A program made the translations under genes and the position numbers. The notes under the pieces are model-generated. The model was not told where the DNA came from, made no database searches, and saw only the letters and a list, made by a program, of their open reading frames with translations. Positions 11,477 to 19,477 of a DNA stretch of 38,490 nt are shown in pieces (position 1 is the stretch's first letter; every line of letters begins with the position of its first letter). Source of the DNA: a virus; the IMG/VR virus record IMGVR_UViG_3300009593_000048, positions 1 through 38,490 of that record, one strand, 5' to 3'.

Positions 11477-11716
11477 ATGGATAAAATAATAAATGGAGTT
11501 AAAAGTTTTATACAGTGGGTCCTGGACTTCTTTAAAACACGCTACAAAGTAACTGTGTCCTTTAATAAAGAGTGGGGGGATGCAGACGACAAAAGCTACA
11601 TAACCAAAAAACTACTCGTACAAAAAGAAAATCACCTTAAATTTCGTACCGAAGAAGGTAAAGTTATAGAATATCGTAGCGCTGCGGGTTTAAATTACAT
11701 AATAGAGGATTGCTAA
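11477..11716 (+). CDS. Small phage protein with N-terminal amphipathic/hydrophobic segment
   Basis: 79 residues starting MDKIINGVKSFIQWVLDFF, a hydrophobic or amphipathic helix that may touch the membrane, then a polar beta-like part. No family is recognised. Its stop overlaps the i-spanin start (TAATG), so it belongs to the lysis-associated gene row. Confidence 0.6.
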   Translation: MDKIINGVKSFIQWVLDFFKTRYKVTVSFNKEWGDADDKSYITKKLLVQKENHLKFRTEEGKVIEYRSAAGLNYIIEDC

Positions 11717-12111
11717 TGCAACAGTTACTAATAGGGATAATACTAGTATTAGGGCTCAGTTCCTACTGGCTCTATAATGAGAACAGCACACTAAAGGCCA
11801 ATAACATAGCATTAGAAGGGGCAGTAGAAACTCAAAAAGAAACTATATCCAGCCTTCAAAATGATTTTGCCCTACAGACAGAAGGGTTATTATCTATTCA
11901 ATCCCGTAACCAAGAGATAGAAGCAGAGATGTCAAGGTACCTTGACATATTTAAACGCCATAATTTAACTAAATTAGCAGCAGCTAAGCCTGGTTTAATT
12001 GAACCAAGAGTAAATAAAGGAACGAAAGATGTATTTGATAGCATTGAAGAAGACAGTCGTAGTATCGACAATCTTGATGATGGTTTGCAGTTGCAGCCTG
12101 ATACCAAGTAA
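11716..12111 (+). CDS. Rz: Inner-membrane spanin subunit (Rz-like)
   Basis: 131 residues with the i-spanin layout: a short N-terminus, one membrane helix (QLLIGIILVLGLSSYWLY), then a periplasmic coiled coil (ENSTLKANNIALEG through about residue 90). Spanins fuse inner and outer membranes in the last step of Gram-negative lysis. An AGAGG lies 7 bases before ATG 11716; a TTG at 11710 would add only two residues. The o-spanin gene begins inside its 3' end in another frame, the classic Rz/Rz1 arrangement, which supports both calls. Confidence 0.85.
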   Translation: MQQLLIGIILVLGLSSYWLYNENSTLKANNIALEGAVETQKETISSLQNDFALQTEGLLSIQSRNQEIEAEMSRYLDIFKRHNLTKLAAAKPGLIEPRVNKGTKDVFDSIEEDSRSIDNLDDGLQLQPDTK

Positions 12112-12400
12112 ACAGATAGAAGTTGTAGCTAAACCTATAGATAGGGTTATAGCTCAGCCTATTATGCCCCGAGAAATAGATTTAAAAGACCCCTATTGGT
12201 ATGTAGTAAGTGATAAAAATATAGACGAGTTCTTAGCTAGGGTGGAAAAAGACCAAGGTCAAGTAGTATTTGTAGCTATGTCTGTGCCTGATTACGAGCT
12301 TATGGCATATAACATGCAAGAGCTAAAACGTTATATTAACGAGCTTAAAGAGGTAGTGGTCTACTACAGAAAGGTAACAATTGACAAACCAGAGGAATAA
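12029..12400 (+). CDS. Rz1: Outer-membrane spanin lipoprotein (Rz1-like)
   Basis: 123 residues. The N-terminus has Lys residues, a hydrophobic stretch (VVVSTILMM) and VCSC, a lipobox-like site (V-C-S before C24) that would give an outer-membrane lipoprotein. The mature part contains DPYWYVVSDKNIDEFLARV and a C-terminal helix typical of podophage Rz1-like proteins. It starts 82 nt before the end of Rz in a different frame, with AAAGGA just upstream. It is longer than lambda Rz1. Confidence 0.82.
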   Translation: MYLIALKKTVVVSTILMMVCSCSLIPSKQIEVVAKPIDRVIAQPIMPREIDLKDPYWYVVSDKNIDEFLARVEKDQGQVVFVAMSVPDYELMAYNMQELKRYINELKEVVVYYRKVTIDKPEE

Positions 12401-12597: not shown

Positions 12598-12978
12598 ATG
12601 GCTAAGAAAGCACCAGATGCTTTTGTTTACCACGGGACCTTGGAGCGGATTGTTGATGGGGACACCTTTGACTGTTCGCTCGACCTAGGATTCGACGTTA
12701 AACTACACAAGCAAAGAGTACGGTTAGCGGGAATAGATACCCCAGAATCAAGAACACGAGATCTAGCAGAAAAGAAACTAGGCTTGGCCGCAAAGGCAAG
12801 GCTAAAAGAACTCTGCGTAGGTAAAATAAAAATAAAGTCTCTTGGAAAGGGCAAGTACGGCAGGATCCTGGGTATACCATACACAGAAGACGGCAAAGAT
12901 ATTTGTCAGATGTTGATAAAAGAAGGTCATGCAGTGGAGTACCACGGTGGGACTAAAACCAAATGGGGTGATTACTAA
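12598..12978 (+). CDS. Staphylococcal nuclease (thermonuclease) family protein
   Basis: 126 residues. Key SNase residues are visible: D22 (VDGDTF), R42, D47-T48-P49-E50 (GIDTPES) and R89 (GKYGRILG), matching D21, R35, D40-T41, E43 and R87 of the Staphylococcus enzyme. The family cuts DNA and RNA with Ca2+. There is no signal peptide, so it should act in the host cytoplasm, perhaps in host DNA breakdown or genome processing. It overlaps the holin gene by one base. Confidence 0.9.
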   Translation: MAKKAPDAFVYHGTLERIVDGDTFDCSLDLGFDVKLHKQRVRLAGIDTPESRTRDLAEKKLGLAAKARLKELCVGKIKIKSLGKGKYGRILGIPYTEDGKDICQMLIKEGHAVEYHGGTKTKWGDY

Positions 12979-13349
12979 TGAACGAAGAAAAATTTAGCGG
13001 AGATATGAGTCGTAATGAGGTTGAGATAGACCTTAATAAATTTATGGCAATGGTTTCCGAGATTGGCGAACTTAAACAAAAGATCATGGAACTAGAAAAT
13101 GAAAAGGAACCTGATAATCCTTGGCAAAGTTGGATATGGTTCTCAAACATGATTGATGCTTGGAGAATCTTCCCAAGAATGTTTTTAACAGTTTACATAG
13201 TGCTTCTCTATAAATGTACTATATGGTTTATGAACCTACCAGCACCAACATTTGAACAATCAGGGTTGATTTCAATAGTAGTTGGAGCAGGCGCAGCTTG
13301 GTTTGGACTATATGCAGGAACAGCTAAAGATAAAATAAATAGCAAATAA
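12978..13349 (+). CDS. Putative holin (two membrane segments)
   Basis: 123 residues: a charged, helical N-terminal half, then two hydrophobic helices (MFLTVYIVLLYKCTIWFM and LISIVVGAGAAWFGLYAG) and a basic tail. The AWRIFPR ... EQSGLISIVVGAGAAWFGLY pattern is common in holins of marine podophages. Holins open the inner membrane to let the GH24 endolysin out. It is joined to its neighbours by one-base overlaps. Confidence 0.72.
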   Translation: MNEEKFSGDMSRNEVEIDLNKFMAMVSEIGELKQKIMELENEKEPDNPWQSWIWFSNMIDAWRIFPRMFLTVYIVLLYKCTIWFMNLPAPTFEQSGLISIVVGAGAAWFGLYAGTAKDKINSK

Positions 13350-13642
13350 TGGAAGCTTTTGACCTTATAGAGAAGGTCGGATTGCCTATAGCTTCTGGTC
13401 TTATAATGGGGTATTTCATATTCCTTATAATGCAACAGCTAATGAAAGGTCTTGTTAATAAGATCAAGACCGTAGAAGGCATTACCAAAATGCTCATTAC
13501 CAGAGCATCAATAATGAATAACGACATCATACGCATAGACACGAGTGTGTCCTCTGCGCTTAACTTAAAACCGGATCTAGGAAGGATTGCGCGGGCAGAA
13601 AACTTTGTAGAAGACGGGAAGATAGATGCAAGACGCGACTAA
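13349..13642 (+). CDS. Small membrane protein, paralogue A
   Basis: 97 residues: an N-terminal LIEKVGLPIASGLIMGYF with one membrane helix, then a helical cytoplasmic part (TRASIMNNDIIRID). It shares the pattern LIEK.G......GLGYF....(I/M)...IIR.D with the next gene, so the two look like an old tandem duplication. One-base overlaps on both sides (TAATG). A lysis or membrane-anchoring role is possible. Confidence 0.7.
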   Translation: MEAFDLIEKVGLPIASGLIMGYFIFLIMQQLMKGLVNKIKTVEGITKMLITRASIMNNDIIRIDTSVSSALNLKPDLGRIARAENFVEDGKIDARRD

Positions 13643-13905
13643 TGGATATAGTAGGCTTAATAGAGAAGTTCGGATTTACAACAGTTATGGTCGTAGGCCT
13701 GGGGTACTTTGTATATTACGTATGGATCACAATAACTAAAACCATTGATCCAGCAGTAGCTGAGATGCAGAAAACAATTATCCGACTGACCGACCAACTT
13801 CGCCTATTAGACCAAGATATGATACGATTACAAGAGAAACTTAATACTGTATTGGAGTTACAAGAACAAGAACATGGTAAAAAAGAAAAGAGGAAGGCCA
13901 AGTAA
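13642..13905 (+). CDS. Small membrane protein, paralogue B
   Basis: 87 residues: MDIVGLIEKFGF, a membrane helix (TTVMVVGLGYFVYYVW), then a coiled-coil-like segment (LTDQLRLLDQDMIRLQEKL) and a basic tail GKKEKRKAK. It parallels the previous gene in length and layout. Its last 32 nt are shared in another frame with the start of csgF, which ties the curli cassette to this operon. Confidence 0.7.
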   Translation: MDIVGLIEKFGFTTVMVVGLGYFVYYVWITITKTIDPAVAEMQKTIIRLTDQLRLLDQDMIRLQEKLNTVLELQEQEHGKKEKRKAK

Positions 13906-14410
13906 GGCCGAGATTGCACTAAGAAAACGAGAAGAAGAGAAGCAAAAGATCATAGAATGGGCTTTCTATATTGGGATCATTCTCTTTTTAGGGGTGATTG
14001 TACAAAATGCCCGGGCCGATGAAATGGTGCATAAGTTTAAAAGCCCTAGTTTTAGCGGAGTAGGGATCTCTTCTCATTACCTAACAATCGAAAACCAAGA
14101 GTTTAATAGAAAAGAAGCGAACAAAGCTGAACTAAAAGCATATAAGGAACAGCTAAAACGGGACGCCGAAAACACAACGCTGGCCAGATTCATAAGAAAC
14201 CTTGAATCTAGAATATATGCACAGCTATCAAGGCAGCTAGTAGATGCTTTATTTGGGGATAACCCAAGTACAAGCGGTATATTAGAACTCATGGGTAACA
14301 CTATCGAGTACTCTGTAAGTGAAGACGGCACAATGATAACTTTAAAAATTACAGATGCAGATGGCAATGTTACCGAAATTACGGTTCCTATCGGTTCTTT
14401 TACTTTCTAG
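13874..14410 (+). CDS. csgF: CsgF-like curli assembly protein with a basic N-terminal extension
   Basis: 178 residues. CsgF sits at the cell surface on the CsgG pore and couples curlin secretion to fibre nucleation. After the signal/membrane segment (residues about 26-43, possible cleavage at NARA/DE, 48/49) comes HKFKSPSFSG, like the FxFxNPxFGG start of mature CsgF, whose N-terminus plugs into CsgG. The rest fits too: a helical region, LSRQLVDALFGDN, and IEYSVSEDG ... TLKITDADGNVTEI. Unusual: 25 residues before the signal include KKRGRPSKAE, an AT-hook-like basic stretch. It overlaps csgG by 56 nt. Confidence 0.85.
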   Translation: MVKKKRGRPSKAEIALRKREEEKQKIIEWAFYIGIILFLGVIVQNARADEMVHKFKSPSFSGVGISSHYLTIENQEFNRKEANKAELKAYKEQLKRDAENTTLARFIRNLESRIYAQLSRQLVDALFGDNPSTSGILELMGNTIEYSVSEDGTMITLKITDADGNVTEITVPIGSFTF

Positions 14411-15176
14411 TTGCGCTTCATTATTACTTGAAGACCCTATAGAAAATACAGTACCTCCGGTAAGAACTATTGAAAAAGCAAGTGTTGATGAGTTAGTTGT
14501 AACTGACTTATTAAATTGCCGTGCGCCTAAAAGAAAACCAACAGTCGCTGTGTACGCAACAGGTTTTATGGACCAAACGGGCCAGAGACTAAGCAATTCT
14601 TCTTATGCTAGTTTTTCTACAGCCATAACCCAACAACCAAGTGCCTTCCTATTAAAAGCACTAAAAGACGCATGTAAGAATAGTGGCGGTTTCTTTATCG
14701 TAGTAGAACGAGCGGGTATAGATAACCTTACAAAAGAAAGACAAATTATACGTAGTGGGAGAGAGGTAGATGGAAATAGTAGCCCATTAAATACATTACT
14801 GTTTGCAGGTTTATTAATAGAGGGTGCTGTTGTGTCGTATGAAGCGAACGAAACTAGCGGTGGCGCAGGGGCTCGTTATCTAGGCATTGGTATCTCTAAG
14901 GCCTATAGAACTGACACTTTAACGATTCAATTGCGTGTAGTATCAGTAAACAACGGAAGGATACTACTTGAGAAACTAGTCACGAAGACCATTCTTAGTG
15001 TATCATTAACAGATGACGTGTTTCGTTTTATTGAAATGGGTACTGAACTCGTGGAAATAGAAAGTGGCATAGTGCGGAATGAGTCTGGAGGGCTTGCTTT
15101 GCGTTCTGCTATAGAAACCGGTCTATTAGAAATAATCAAGGAGGGTGATGAAGCTGGATATTGGAGTTTTAAATGA
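14355..15176 (+). CDS. csgG: CsgG-like outer-membrane secretion pore lipoprotein
   Basis: 273 residues. CsgG forms a nonameric outer-membrane channel for curlin subunits. It has a lipoprotein signal ending LLLSSC (C20). The body aligns with E. coli CsgG: TVAVYATGFMDQTGQ, FSTAITQQPSAFLLKALKD, ERAGIDNLTKERQIIR, GGAGARYLGIG, TLTIQLRVVSVNNGRIL, FRFIEMGTELVE and LRSAIETGLLEII. In the constriction loop F87 matches Phe56, but the Tyr51 and Asn55 positions appear to be Ser. ATG 14355, 14361 or 14367 could all start it. It ends in an ATGA overlap with the curlin-like gene. No CsgE-like gene is seen. Confidence 0.9.
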   Translation: MQMAMLPKLRFLSVLLLSSCASLLLEDPIENTVPPVRTIEKASVDELVVTDLLNCRAPKRKPTVAVYATGFMDQTGQRLSNSSYASFSTAITQQPSAFLLKALKDACKNSGGFFIVVERAGIDNLTKERQIIRSGREVDGNSSPLNTLLFAGLLIEGAVVSYEANETSGGAGARYLGIGISKAYRTDTLTIQLRVVSVNNGRILLEKLVTKTILSVSLTDDVFRFIEMGTELVEIESGIVRNESGGLALRSAIETGLLEIIKEGDEAGYWSFK

Positions 15177-15874
15177 AAAAAATATTACCACTCTTTTTGT
15201 TAGTTGGTTTTTTACATGCAGACAATGAGGTCTATATAGACCAGTCTGGAAACAATGCGAATATAGACTTAGAACAGTTAGGATCCAATAATATTATTGG
15301 TGGATTGGACGCTGCTACAGGTCAAATGACCCCGCTCGACCTTGATGGTTTAAATCTTACTTTAGATGTAAACCAAATTGGTAACTCAAATAAATTCTTA
15401 GGTGATATCTTAGGTGATAACATCGTAGGTTTTTTTGAATTTGATGGGGATAGCAACGTTTTTGATATACAAGTAGACCCAACTGACGCAAACGGAGCGG
15501 ATTCAGGAAACTACAATGTAGATGTAACAGGTTCAAGTAATGACTTTAACCTGAATATTGGAAAGAATGACATGGCTTCCACGCTTGATTTAGATTGGAT
15601 TATCAATGGTGACTCTAACGAGTTCGACTTTGATATAGATTACGATACAGCAACCAGTTATGTTGATGTGGATGGAGATTCCAACACAGTAACATTTGAT
15701 GGTAGCGGGTATGCAAACGGGTATTTTTATCTTGATCAAACAGGAGACAGCAGGACATTCAATATTATTCAGTCATCTACGTTGGCTAGCGATTGGCTTA
15801 AGATCATTTCTACTGGTGATAACGGTACTATTTGTATCACCCAGAATGACGGCGGCTCAAGCACCGGTTGCTAG
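15173..15874 (+). CDS. Curlin-like secreted repeat protein (putative CsgA/CsgB analogue)
   Basis: 233 residues. A clean Sec signal peptide (MKKILPLFLLVGFLHA, cleavage before DNE) is followed by about eight repeats of roughly 20-30 residues with the core (D/Q)xxGDSNxFxxxI, for example VYIDQSGNNANIDLEQ, DVNQIGNSNKF, DVTGSSNDFNLNI and YLDQTGDSRTFNI. Curlin repeats have Q-x-G-x-x-N-x-x-x-x-Q and stack as amyloid; here Asp often replaces Gln. The protein is very acidic and ends with two Cys in CITQNDGGSSTGC. Its position right after csgG supports its being the exported substrate. Fibre formation is inferred. Confidence 0.8.
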   Translation: MKKILPLFLLVGFLHADNEVYIDQSGNNANIDLEQLGSNNIIGGLDAATGQMTPLDLDGLNLTLDVNQIGNSNKFLGDILGDNIVGFFEFDGDSNVFDIQVDPTDANGADSGNYNVDVTGSSNDFNLNIGKNDMASTLDLDWIINGDSNEFDFDIDYDTATSYVDVDGDSNTVTFDGSGYANGYFYLDQTGDSRTFNIIQSSTLASDWLKIISTGDNGTICITQNDGGSSTGC

Positions 15875-16901
15875 TATAGGAGATATCTCCGAATTAACTG
15901 GAAACGCTGAAGTAATAAGAGACCAGCCCTACGGGGCTGAGATTGATTTCGACATCAAACAAATGGATGATGTTCGGACTACTTCCGGCCGTGTCGGAAT
16001 AACCTTCCTGGACGACTCTATTGTCCGTTTAACTGAGCATTCTAAGCTCGTTATTACCGAATATATTTACGACCCTGACCCCTCTAAGGGAAAAATGAGT
16101 ATGCGTTTTGCTAGCGGAACTACTCGTTTTATAAGTAGTAAACTAGGCAAAATTGATAAGAGAAATATAAAGTTATCCACACCCACAGCAGACATAGCCA
16201 TTAGGGGGACAGATTTCACTTGTACGGTTGATGAGCTTGGGCGAAGTCTTATTATTTTATTACCCGATGTAAATGGTATATCTAGTGGTGAGATACTTGT
16301 CACGACGGCAGCTGGCACTGTTACGCTTAATAAGCCGTACGAAGCAACTACTGTAGAAGTTTGGGAGAATAGCCCTAGCAGTCCTGTAATATTGGATCTT
16401 ACATTAGATATCATAGACAACATGCTTATTGTTACACCGCCGGAGGAACAAAAGTTATCCACAGAATCATCCACAACAGCCGTAGCAGATAGCGGGGCTA
16501 TATTAGATGTAGATTATTTAGAATTTAATGAATTAGAAACAGATTACTTAGAAGAAGATGATTTAGAATTTTCAGAGCTAGATATTAATTACTTAGACGT
16601 TAACTTCTTTGAGGACTTACTAGCGATTATAGAAGAAATAGATACACTAAAATCGGACAACCTAGCTGTCGGATCTGTAGTAGCAGGCACGTCTATAGGA
16701 CAGGATTTAGAAACTCAGATCATTACAATCCTTCAAGGTGAAGCAATCTCTTTTCAAAGGAAAGTTACACAAAACGCTCAGTTGACCGTAGATGCGTCGC
16801 AAGGGTACACTATAATATTAATACAGGATGGTAAGTACCAACAAATTGTAGTAAATGGTGGGGGAAGCTCTACTATAACCATTACACAGGGGTCAGGATG
16901 A
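15846..16901 (+). CDS. FecR-domain protein with acidic repeats and curlin-like C-terminus
   Basis: 351 residues from ATG 15846. The FecR domain shows DVRTTSGRVGITFLDDSIVRL, LVITEYIYDP and STPTADIAIRGTDF. Then come acidic YLE repeats (VDYLEFNELETDYLEEDDLEF) and a C-terminus QDGKYQQIVVNGGGSSTITI that recalls curlin strands. FecR domains near CHASE2 cyclases normally work in the periplasm, but this start gives no signal peptide. The same frame upstream (about 15792-15845) encodes a signal-like LRSFLLVITVLFVSPR ending TAAQA; the true start may be ATG 15711 or an unusual codon. ATGA overlap with the cyclase gene. Confidence 0.8.
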   Translation: MTAAQAPVASIGDISELTGNAEVIRDQPYGAEIDFDIKQMDDVRTTSGRVGITFLDDSIVRLTEHSKLVITEYIYDPDPSKGKMSMRFASGTTRFISSKLGKIDKRNIKLSTPTADIAIRGTDFTCTVDELGRSLIILLPDVNGISSGEILVTTAAGTVTLNKPYEATTVEVWENSPSSPVILDLTLDIIDNMLIVTPPEEQKLSTESSTTAVADSGAILDVDYLEFNELETDYLEEDDLEFSELDINYLDVNFFEDLLAIIEEIDTLKSDNLAVGSVVAGTSIGQDLETQIITILQGEAISFQRKVTQNAQLTVDASQGYTIILIQDGKYQQIVVNGGGSSTITITQGSG

Positions 16902-18652
16902 AGAAATGGATTTCGTTTATTAGTATATCGCTACTTTGCATTCCCTTATTATTCAATTGGCAGGCATTAGAAGTACTTAAGTTAAAAGTATTTGATGCTT
17001 TCGTGCAAACCCCTGAAGAAACCGGCTTCTTTGTAACGTTAGATATAACAGAAAAAGATGTATCAGAAGCGGGCGGTTGGCCTTTCCCGCGGGAAGAGCT
17101 GGCACGCATACATAATGAACTTATAAAAGAAGGAGCTATGGGAGTTGGTTGGGTTGTAGCTTTCCCTGAAAAAGACCGTTTTGGGGGCGATCAGGTATTC
17201 GCGGCCTCCCTTGCTAGCACGCCAAGTGTCTTAGCTATGTTTGAAAGTGAAACGGGGATTGTTCCTCCTACTGTAGGTACGGTGGTATTAGGAGAAGGTG
17301 CGGACGGAATACCAGCGCCTGGAGTAATTGTTAACACGCCTGTATTAAGAGAAGCTGCAAATGAAGGGATAGCTGTAGCGCGTACAGATGTAGATAATCT
17401 GGTAAGAAGGTTGCCTTTATTAATGCAAACGGAGACAGGATGGGTTCCAGCATTCGGTACGGAAGTGCTAAAAATATTAGCTAATACTGATACCTATATT
17501 ATTCGTACAGAACAACAACAGATAGCTGCGATAAAAGTACCGAGCTTTGGGGAAATAAAAACGGACGGAATAGGAAGAAAGTGGATATCTTGGACTAAAA
17601 CTTCCCGTACAACTCTAGATGAGCTTAACGTAGAAGGTAAGTTTGTGTTTGTGGGAGTTAGTGCAAAAGGTGTGATGCCTCAAATTGCCACGCCAGCTGG
17701 CCTTTTGTACCCCCATGAGATACAGGCCGCCCTTACAGAAAGTTTATTTTTCGATTCTCCACAAATACCTGGAGCAAGTCTTTTATATGAGCTACTTATA
17801 CTTATAGGGGTTCTACTATTAGCAGTGTTTATAATACGTACTCTGGGGTTAGTGGGTACTTTAATAGGGACCATGGCCCTCGGTTCGTTGACCGTGTTTG
17901 GTGGTTGGTATCTTATTACATCTAATATACTTATTGATGTAAGTTATAGTTTAATATCACTTGTACTTATATCGGTACAAGAGTTCTGGTTACGTTTTAA
18001 TGAACAGTACAAACTAAGACAGCAGATCAAGAAACAGTTCGAACACTATTTAGATCCTAAACAAGTTGCACGATTACAAAACAACCCAGAGCTGCTGAAG
18101 CTAGGAGGAGAGACGCGCGTATGTACGTTCCTTTTCACTGATGTAAGAGGCTTCACGAACCTGTCTGAGAAATTAGAACCCGAACAAGTAACTGAGATAA
18201 TGAATAGAGTTCTTACTGTACAAGTAGAATGCATTCAGGCCCACGGTGGCATGGTAGATAAGTTTATAGGCGACGCATGTATGGCAATATTCAACTCCCC
18301 CCTAGATTTGGATAAACACGAAGTACGTGCTGTCGCCTGTGCCAGGGACATGCGCACGGCTATGAAGTATCTTCAGAAAGATTTGCCCGAACCAATTGCT
18401 ATAGGTATAGGTGTTAATACAGGTAAAGCTGTAGTTGGTAATATGGGGAGTGATACAAGATTTGATTATTCAGCAATAGGAGATGCAGTTAATACAGCCG
18501 CACGATTAGAGAGTGCAACTAAAGAAGCAGGGGTAGATATACTTATAGGAGAAAGTACGTACAAAAAATTACCACCAGGGGTGGGGGCTAGCTTTGTACG
18601 AAATATGAAAGTAAAAGGTAAAGCTAAGGCTCTAAAGGTGTATACTGTTTAG
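16898..18652 (+). CDS. CHASE2-domain membrane adenylate cyclase (class III)
   Basis: 584 residues. One N-terminal membrane helix (ISFISISLLCIPLLF), a periplasmic CHASE2 sensor (about 25-300, with TLDITEKDV and GGWPFPRE), a bundle of membrane helices (about 300-370), then a class III cyclase domain. Metal ligands are D415 (FTDVRGFT) and D459 (KFIGDA). The adenine-selecting pair is K455 and S525, where Asp or Thr is usual. N532 and R536 (AVNTAARLE) are the transition-state residues. So the catalytic set is complete and the expected product is cAMP. It is last in the curli-like cassette, directly after FecR, so FecR may feed signals to CHASE2. Confidence 0.9.
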   Translation: MKKWISFISISLLCIPLLFNWQALEVLKLKVFDAFVQTPEETGFFVTLDITEKDVSEAGGWPFPREELARIHNELIKEGAMGVGWVVAFPEKDRFGGDQVFAASLASTPSVLAMFESETGIVPPTVGTVVLGEGADGIPAPGVIVNTPVLREAANEGIAVARTDVDNLVRRLPLLMQTETGWVPAFGTEVLKILANTDTYIIRTEQQQIAAIKVPSFGEIKTDGIGRKWISWTKTSRTTLDELNVEGKFVFVGVSAKGVMPQIATPAGLLYPHEIQAALTESLFFDSPQIPGASLLYELLILIGVLLLAVFIIRTLGLVGTLIGTMALGSLTVFGGWYLITSNILIDVSYSLISLVLISVQEFWLRFNEQYKLRQQIKKQFEHYLDPKQVARLQNNPELLKLGGETRVCTFLFTDVRGFTNLSEKLEPEQVTEIMNRVLTVQVECIQAHGGMVDKFIGDACMAIFNSPLDLDKHEVRAVACARDMRTAMKYLQKDLPEPIAIGIGVNTGKAVVGNMGSDTRFDYSAIGDAVNTAARLESATKEAGVDILIGESTYKKLPPGVGASFVRNMKVKGKAKALKVYTV

Positions 18653-18910
18653 ATGGCAAGAAACTACGCAAACGAATATAAAAAGTATCAAGGTACTGAG
18701 GCACAAAAGAAAAGACGCGCAATGCGCAATAAAGCAAGACGCCAAGCGATAAAAGACGGACGGGCAAGAAAAGGAGATGGTAAAGACGTACACCATAGGA
18801 ACGGCAATCCAATGGATTCAAGTTCAGATAATTTACAAATCCGAAGTGCTAGTTCTAATAGGTCCTTTGCTCGTACTAAAAACGCAAGAAAGAAACATAG
18901 GACTGCATGA
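18653..18910 (+). CDS. HNH-like small basic phage protein
   Basis: 85 residues, very basic. DVHHRNGNPMDSSSDNLQIRS is the core of HNH-type homing or structure-binding endonucleases (HH, N, and Asn before L). The N-terminal part is a Lys/Arg-rich helix. Similar small proteins are common near phage late genes, where HNH nucleases can aid terminase. Activity is not certain, since the third metal-binding residue is not clear. It directly abuts the cyclase stop. Confidence 0.7.
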   Translation: MARNYANEYKKYQGTEAQKKRRAMRNKARRQAIKDGRARKGDGKDVHHRNGNPMDSSSDNLQIRSASSNRSFARTKNARKKHRTA

Positions 18911-19008
18911 TGTTAGCTAGGTTCTTAGATTGGTTGCTCGAAAGGTCTTTTCAACGTACCGAAGATAGAATGATGCGAAAGCTACAAAACTACAAAAGAC
19001 TCAATTAA
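18907..19008 (+). CDS. Very small ORF closing the plus-strand operon
   Basis: 33 residues (MMLARFLDWLLERSFQRTED ...), starting in an ATGA overlap with the HNH-like gene and ending 8 nt inside the convergent oxygenase gene. An amphipathic helix is likely. Coupling and in-operon position are the only support. Confidence 0.4.
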   Translation: MMLARFLDWLLERSFQRTEDRMMRKLQNYKRLN

Positions 19009-19477
19009 AGTAAGTAGCTACTTCAATTGGGTAACTCCACACATTTATATTCATTGAAGTACGTTTACCATTTATTATACTAGTAACCTTATGTTCTAAG
19101 GCTGGTCCAAAAATGACAAGTCTATTTGACACTGGTTTTATTCTCATATTATTTTTAAATATAAGTTCGCCACCTTCTAATTCTTTAACTTCTGGATAAT
19201 AAACAATTGAACATAAAGGAAAATAGTTCTGGCCTGTACGAAAGAAATGTTTTTCATCTCTATCTACATGCCAATCCGGAGATGAGTTTTTATGAAACCA
19301 AGTGTCATACCCAACTTGTCTAGTCAAATCAATATAATTAGAGGCGGTTTTGATTAATCTTTCACATATCTCTTTATTAGGATGTTCGTCTTTTGGTTCA
19401 AAATAAGTAGGGTTTACATCATAATCTATGTTTTTTATGGTTTCAGGGTATAAAATTTTGTCTAATACTATAATCAT
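19001..19477 (-). CDS. 2OG-Fe(II) oxygenase, third in the window
   Basis: 158 residues. The iron triad is visible as H-x-D in PDWHVDRDE and the His of ALEHKVTSI; the Arg of GKRTSMNINVW is the likely 2OG-binding residue. ELEGGELIFKNN is the usual strand before the distal His. It differs from the 360 enzyme and lies at the end of the minus-strand replication cluster. The substrate could be a protein, nucleic acid or small molecule. Only a weak GGAA precedes the ATG. Confidence 0.85.
   Translation of the reverse strand: MIIVLDKILYPETIKNIDYDVNPTYFEPKDEHPNKEICERLIKTASNYIDLTRQVGYDTWFHKNSSPDWHVDRDEKHFFRTGQNYFPLCSIVYYPEVKELEGGELIFKNNMRIKPVSNRLVIFGPALEHKVTSIINGKRTSMNINVWSYPIEVATYFN

Follow-up and report, generated by a model that had tools for sequence, protein, structure and literature searches.

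The window, as the 38,490-nt stretch of DNA analysed here is called, corresponds to the IMG/VR record IMGVR_UViG_3300009593_000048 and is a genuine contig of a marine podovirus, whose genes include those for an internal virion protein, lysozyme, spanins, primase, helicase and DNA polymerase. Its plus strand carries at 13874-18652 a curli-type secretion cassette of five genes, coding in this order for a CsgF-like protein (13874-14410), a CsgG-like outer-membrane pore lipoprotein (14355-15176), a curlin-like secreted repeat protein (15173-15874), a FecR-domain protein predicted to be exported (15696-16901) and a CHASE2-class III adenylate cyclase (16898-18652), which is the last cassette gene. 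This is the arrangement that an earlier note, made from the sequence alone, had reported. CsgF and CsgG overlap by 56 nt, whereas the CsgG/curlin and FecR/cyclase pairs overlap by 4 nt. From the codon view, the FecR protein may start anywhere within 15696-15846, and its frame has no stop codon in the 3'-terminal part of the curlin gene (15696-15874), where it encodes a hydrophobic stretch. The gene cassette itself is already known; what is new here is its KPP25-like carrier lineage, and a lysis-operon slot that it shares with an alternative cassette.

The Pfam assignments of the two pore components, CsgF (5.3e-18) and CsgG (4.3e-44), both lie above the gathering cut-off, as do those of FecR (1.4e-10), CHASE2 (1.8e-29) and Guanylate_cyc (6.5e-22). 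Against solved E. coli CsgG structures, the CsgG profile scores 2.4e-62 with the whole chain covered, and a lipobox-like LLSSC, recognised by inspection, provides a lipoprotein signal. For CsgF, no sequence match was found in the PDB. The curlin-like protein represents the weakest family call (Curlin_rpt E = 0.025, below the cut-off). On the one hand, regularly spaced GxxN/QxGxxN motifs are kept across 56 phage homologues, the AlphaFold model displays a confident all-beta repeat fold (predicted local distance difference test, pLDDT, 85), and the protein resembles 'Curlin associated' phage proteins (BFVD E = 9e-8). On the other hand, the Curlin_rpt score is below the cut-off and there is no significant match to the solved CsgA fibril, and we therefore name it curlin-like rather than CsgA. 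The FecR structure model was not used, its confidence being low outside the FecR domain (pLDDT 52), and the rows of the cultured phages HTVC008M and Melnitz were left out of two structure-prediction inputs.

Apart from truncation, the five-gene order is the same in all 122 CsgG loci retrieved (some contigs counted twice), which excludes chance. Furthermore, pN/pS values (ratio of nonsynonymous to synonymous polymorphism) of 0.10-0.27 for the CsgG, curlin-like, FecR and cyclase genes indicate strong conservation under purifying selection. A contaminant or chimeric assembly, which the earlier note had considered as a possible refutation, is ruled out by the flanking phage genes and by a gene order common to many independent contigs.

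The curli genes of SAR11 phages that the earlier note mentioned have indeed been described. According to PMC9599517 (2022), HTVC023P-type podophages and SAR11 myophages carry CsgF, CsgG, CsgA/B, FecR, an optional second CsgA/B and a cyclase, and this module is distributed worldwide and transcribed; its CsgF/CsgG part was described in PMC7029224 and PMC9004378. The pairing of FecR with a CHASE2 cyclase, to which the earlier note had drawn attention, has therefore already been published (PMC9599517). The window possesses the same genes in the same order, from the small transmembrane (TM) gene(s) through the cyclase, as the pelagiphage type VIII module (PMC9599517, PMC7029224): CsgF, CsgG and curlin follow each other, FecR comes after curlin, and the cyclase, which is frequent in that module, is present. 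The optional second curlin is absent from the window, as had been noted, while other loci do carry one. The order, including FecR and the cyclase, is shared by the cultured HTVC008M (record KC465899) and the Methylophilales phage Melnitz (record MZ577097), whose cyclases and CsgG are 33% and 44-47% identical to those of the window, respectively, but whose cassette lies outside the lysis operon, between replication and structural genes (PMC7029224). The Melnitz record annotates two curlin repeat proteins, though PMC9004378 states that csgA/csgB are lacking. With respect to the csgBAC/csgDEFG operons of E. coli, CsgG and CsgF homologues and a putative curlin-type repeat substrate are common to both systems, whereas the window has one repeat protein, an attached FecR and CHASE2 cyclase, and, in agreement with the earlier note, no CsgE that could be found.

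The carriers of the module in PMC9599517 are HTVC023P-type podophages or T4-like myophages, carrier type not being a requirement of the module. The DNA polymerase and primase of the window are nearest to those of KPP25-like phages among annotated records, the polymerase being 34% identical to that of KPP25 and 23% to that of HTVC023P; on the latter value, an HTVC023P-type backbone was rejected. Judged by these replication proteins, the window is a KPP25-like podovirus and belongs to a further lineage with the curli module, outside the two in PMC9599517.

In this lineage, the cassette is inserted among lysis genes, which bears out its reported position; its neighbours from the i-spanin to the HNH gene lie on the plus strand. 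The window order runs from the phage lysozyme (4693-5145) through the internal virion protein and the tail fibre to a spanin pair, namely, an Rz-like i-spanin (11710-12111, PHROG Rz-like spanin 6.5e-16) and an overlapping Rz1-like o-spanin lipoprotein (12029-12400, PHROG Rz-like spanin 2.2e-11), followed by a small open reading frame. Next come a staphylococcal-nuclease-type endonuclease (SNase; 12598-12978, Pfam SNase 5e-14), which forms the left flank of the slot, and TM0 (12978-13349, phrog_10198), a small membrane protein and putative holin encoded by the last conserved gene on this side. Two further small TM genes, TMa and TMb, then precede CsgF, and an HNH endonuclease-like gene (18653-18910, HNH_3 2e-4, just under the cut-off) borders the cyclase on the right. 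HTVC023P-type contigs (large terminase subunit TerL 57-63% identical to HTVC023P) have the curli cassette flanked by TM0 on one side and the spanins on the other. When IMG/VR was searched with the spanins only, csg-module genes turned up in 75 of the 80 loci, and in every one of the 20 that are 10 kb or longer; these 80 loci represent the nearest among at least 581 relatives, and the rate holds for close relatives only.

The slot does not always harbour curli genes. In loci L408 and L409, which share with the window the lysozyme (84% identity), internal virion protein (60%), SNase (93%), TM0 (67%) and HNH (65%), three other genes (L408:16318-19984) occupy the exact place of the curli cassette between TM0 and HNH, coding for an Asn/Thr-repeat protein, an exported protein of about 740 aa and a TM coiled-coil protein, the first two with apparent signal peptides. 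TM0 is 67-70% identical in L408, L342, L346 and L361, all holding this alternative cassette, and the HNH gene is conserved to the right of both cassette types. The alternative cassette is widespread in marine viral contigs, and no csg genes were detected in the 79 new loci analysed from 422 relatives matching a search with the Asn/Thr-rich protein. Across six search sets, the two cassettes were never found in one locus. Among 63 unique, fully covered and occupied slots, 43 hold the curli and 20 the alternative cassette, and none both; slots were made unique by sequence. Searches seeded on either cassette were mixed, so that 43:20 is not a frequency, and it carries no phylogenetic correction. 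A further 18 flank pairs with neither cassette mostly correspond to SNase beside TerL, not to the curli slot. Each cassette type occurs in both podovirus backbones. Nucleotide comparisons (L549 with L317, and L408 with L230) revealed homologous flanks enclosing non-homologous interiors, and the TerL of L549, which has the alternative cassette, is 98% identical to that of L094, which has the curli one; we take this to reflect cassette exchange, in part recent. The main text of PMC9599517 mentions no holin, spanin or endolysin, and neither the slot nor the alternative cassette appears in it.

For the Asn-rich protein of the alternative cassette, a match to its C-terminal domain with 55% identity was found in gp45 of the cultured HTVC023P (L205:29245-29916), which is encoded close to a PurM gene and outside the lysis slot.

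The cyclase matches solved class III adenylate cyclases, and its catalytic residues are intact, as had been claimed: the two metal-binding Asp, the Lys, the adenine-specifying residue, the Asn and the Arg typical of the class are all present (D415, K455, D459, S525, N532, R536). In 156 aligned phage cyclases, these positions are invariant where ungapped (about 146-154 sequences per position), Melnitz excepted, and the adenine-specifying position is Ser or Thr in phage cyclases other than that of Melnitz. The CHASE2 cyclase is thus apparently active, as far as its residues indicate. The Melnitz enzyme (L035:7998-10049) differs from that of the window by the replacement of N532 by Ser, and has an Asp at the adenine-specifying position; it is the only one of the phage homologues examined to do so.

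With regard to FecR, no ECF (extracytoplasmic function) sigma factor or TonB receptor adjoins it in the loci examined, where its neighbours are the curlin-like gene and either the CHASE2 cyclase or lysis genes. FecR adjoins a CHASE2 cyclase in 4 of 30 alphaproteobacterial CHASE2 loci, a sample in which no other family is as common a neighbour, and the two are also neighbours in L123, a locus of a Neomarinimicrobiota bin. A related pair occurs in the biofilm-regulating operon (BiofilmReg) of Burkholderia (PMC5192318), in which an exported FecR protein adjoins a CHASE2 sensor as in the window, but the output is a histidine kinase instead of a class III cyclase; in the window, the pair is moreover joined to a curli operon. 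We infer that, instead of regulating iron, FecR and the CHASE2 cyclase form an envelope sensor that existed beforehand and was joined to the curli operon.

One or two 'histidine kinase' ('HK') genes have been described ahead of the curli module (PMC9599517). Their position corresponds to that of TMa (13349-13642, phrog_18771), the first gene of the curli cassette, which codes for a protein of about 97 aa with a single TM segment and a coiled coil. It is followed by TMb (13642-13905), a second, paralogue-like small TM protein, assigned through phrog_18771 and alignment with the TMa family. The domain search revealed no HisKA/HATPase domain in TMa, and HATPase_c was missing from 12 phage records while control genomes were positive. 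In the window as in HTVC008M and Melnitz, CsgF is preceded by members of one family of TM proteins, which are about 90 aa long and have no kinase domain. An upstream histidine kinase is therefore not supported, and the published assignment looks like a misannotation on the strength of these domain searches. Since HTVC008M and Melnitz have the same family at the same position, it is the annotation that is questioned, not membership in the module.

Taken together, we consider it probable that the module acts as a late-expressed exporter of a surface fibre, equipped with an envelope sensor. A CsgG lipoprotein nonamer and CsgF would form an outer-membrane channel late in infection, through which the curlin-like repeat protein would be exported to form, or coat, a fibre at the surface of the infected cell shortly before it bursts. 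The exported FecR protein and the periplasmic CHASE2 domain may constitute the sensor pair setting cyclase activity. Such a fibre would most likely change the adhesion of the infected cell, its debris or the progeny, leading to aggregation, tethering or shielding against competing phages. The content of the slot argues in this direction: related phages have different secreted repeat proteins there, which suggests a protein outside the cell, rather than a pore or cyclic AMP (cAMP), as the common product, and the alternation with genes for secreted proteins makes an extracellular function more likely than a lysis pore or an uptake channel. A broader proposal, to which we give somewhat less than an even chance, is that the lysis-operon slot of marine podophages accepts at least two unrelated secreted-protein modules, interchangeable for coating or tethering the cell before lysis, of which the curli form would be the sensor-controlled one. 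The occurrence of a slot with either cassette in two unrelated backbones narrows the likely function of SAR11-phage curli to an extracellular product around lysis, and closely related phages with different cassettes offer a natural comparison for testing it.

Several observations weigh against the fibre exporter. Melnitz cultures inspected for aggregation showed no clumping (PMC9004378), which leaves shielding or progeny tethering, bearing in mind that the cyclase of this phage has an altered catalytic residue. The window lacks CsgE, the match of the repeat protein to the solved CsgA fibril reached E = 3.6, and the argument for functional equivalence of the two cassettes is one of position only. 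The link of the phage to SAR11 is presumed from the module and related contigs. Regarding a receptor for cAMP, no cNMP-binding domain was detected in 17 phage records, and among the 99 genomes of the presumed host family (that of one Pelagibacter-labelled metagenome-assembled genome, MAG), 4 possess one. The cyclase itself is missing from 8 of the 56 loci having FecR and at least 3 kb beyond, and cAMP is therefore not essential. The scarcity of receptors and the loci devoid of cyclase cast doubt on the suggestion of the earlier note that the pore may be reported or triggered through cAMP.

These last data also bear on the idea that cAMP is the main product, the cyclase reprogramming the host or signalling to defence or lysis circuits with the curli genes as sensory input. 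The strictly conserved catalytic residues and the presence of the cyclase in 48 of the 56 roomy loci speak for it, but we regard it as very unlikely in view of the scarcity of receptors, of otherwise complete cassettes devoid of cyclase (such as L094, L097 and L122), and of a class III cyclase match in just 3 of the 99 host-family genomes, 2 of them over the cut-off. A different possibility is that CsgG and CsgF have been co-opted for lysis, as a pore in the outer membrane or a pinholin-like trigger helping to time or complete the burst, the repeat protein being secondary. Such a role has been proposed for Melnitz (PMC9004378), and would agree with the location of the cassette, which in two podovirus lineages has spanin, SNase, holin-like and lysozyme genes around it, and with the recovery of csg genes by the spanin-only search. 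However, related phages with the same lysis genes swap the whole cassette for genes without a CsgG homologue, and the pore is therefore not needed for lysis; moreover, the curlin-like protein is invariably retained and is conserved, and the HTVC008M/Melnitz cassette is found elsewhere in the genome, as described above. This makes the lysis pore unlikely.

There is likewise little probability that CsgG serves as an uptake or leakage pore by which nutrients, cofactors or siderophores would feed the infected cell, FecR then sensing iron. This role, put forward in PMC9599517 and PMC7029224, would account for the missing CsgE gate and the FecR domain. Yet the partner of FecR here is a CHASE2 cyclase, and neither an ECF sigma factor nor a TonB receptor; bacteria also have FecR-CHASE2 pairs away from curli and iron operons, and neither the conservation of the repeat protein nor the replacement of the cassette by secreted-protein genes would be explained.

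Curli loci were also encountered outside phage records. A cellular curli operon with FecR and cyclase was considered as donor and rejected, since the 7 loci retrieved in a single scan of genome contigs all have the phage-type order and are probably phage contigs in MAG bins; FecR and the cyclase are absent from all five alphaproteobacterial curli loci examined. CsgG is present in 2 of the 99 host-family genomes, in both cases with a cyclase on the same contig, which is consistent with binned phage. Phage-type cassettes in Neomarinimicrobiota, Maricaulis, Flavobacteriaceae and Pelagibacter MAG bins (L036, L037, L039 and L042) are probably viral contigs binned with bacteria. Conversely, the CsgG encoded by OR851715.1 (hit H17), a 1.5-kb record named 'Salmonella phage S.Kent 1-2-1', is probably host DNA within a phage record. 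Finally, the window carries three 2-oxoglutarate (2OG)-Fe(II) oxygenase-like genes (360-2779 and 19001-19477), one of them just past the curli cassette, and such genes are present in HTVC023P-type phages too.

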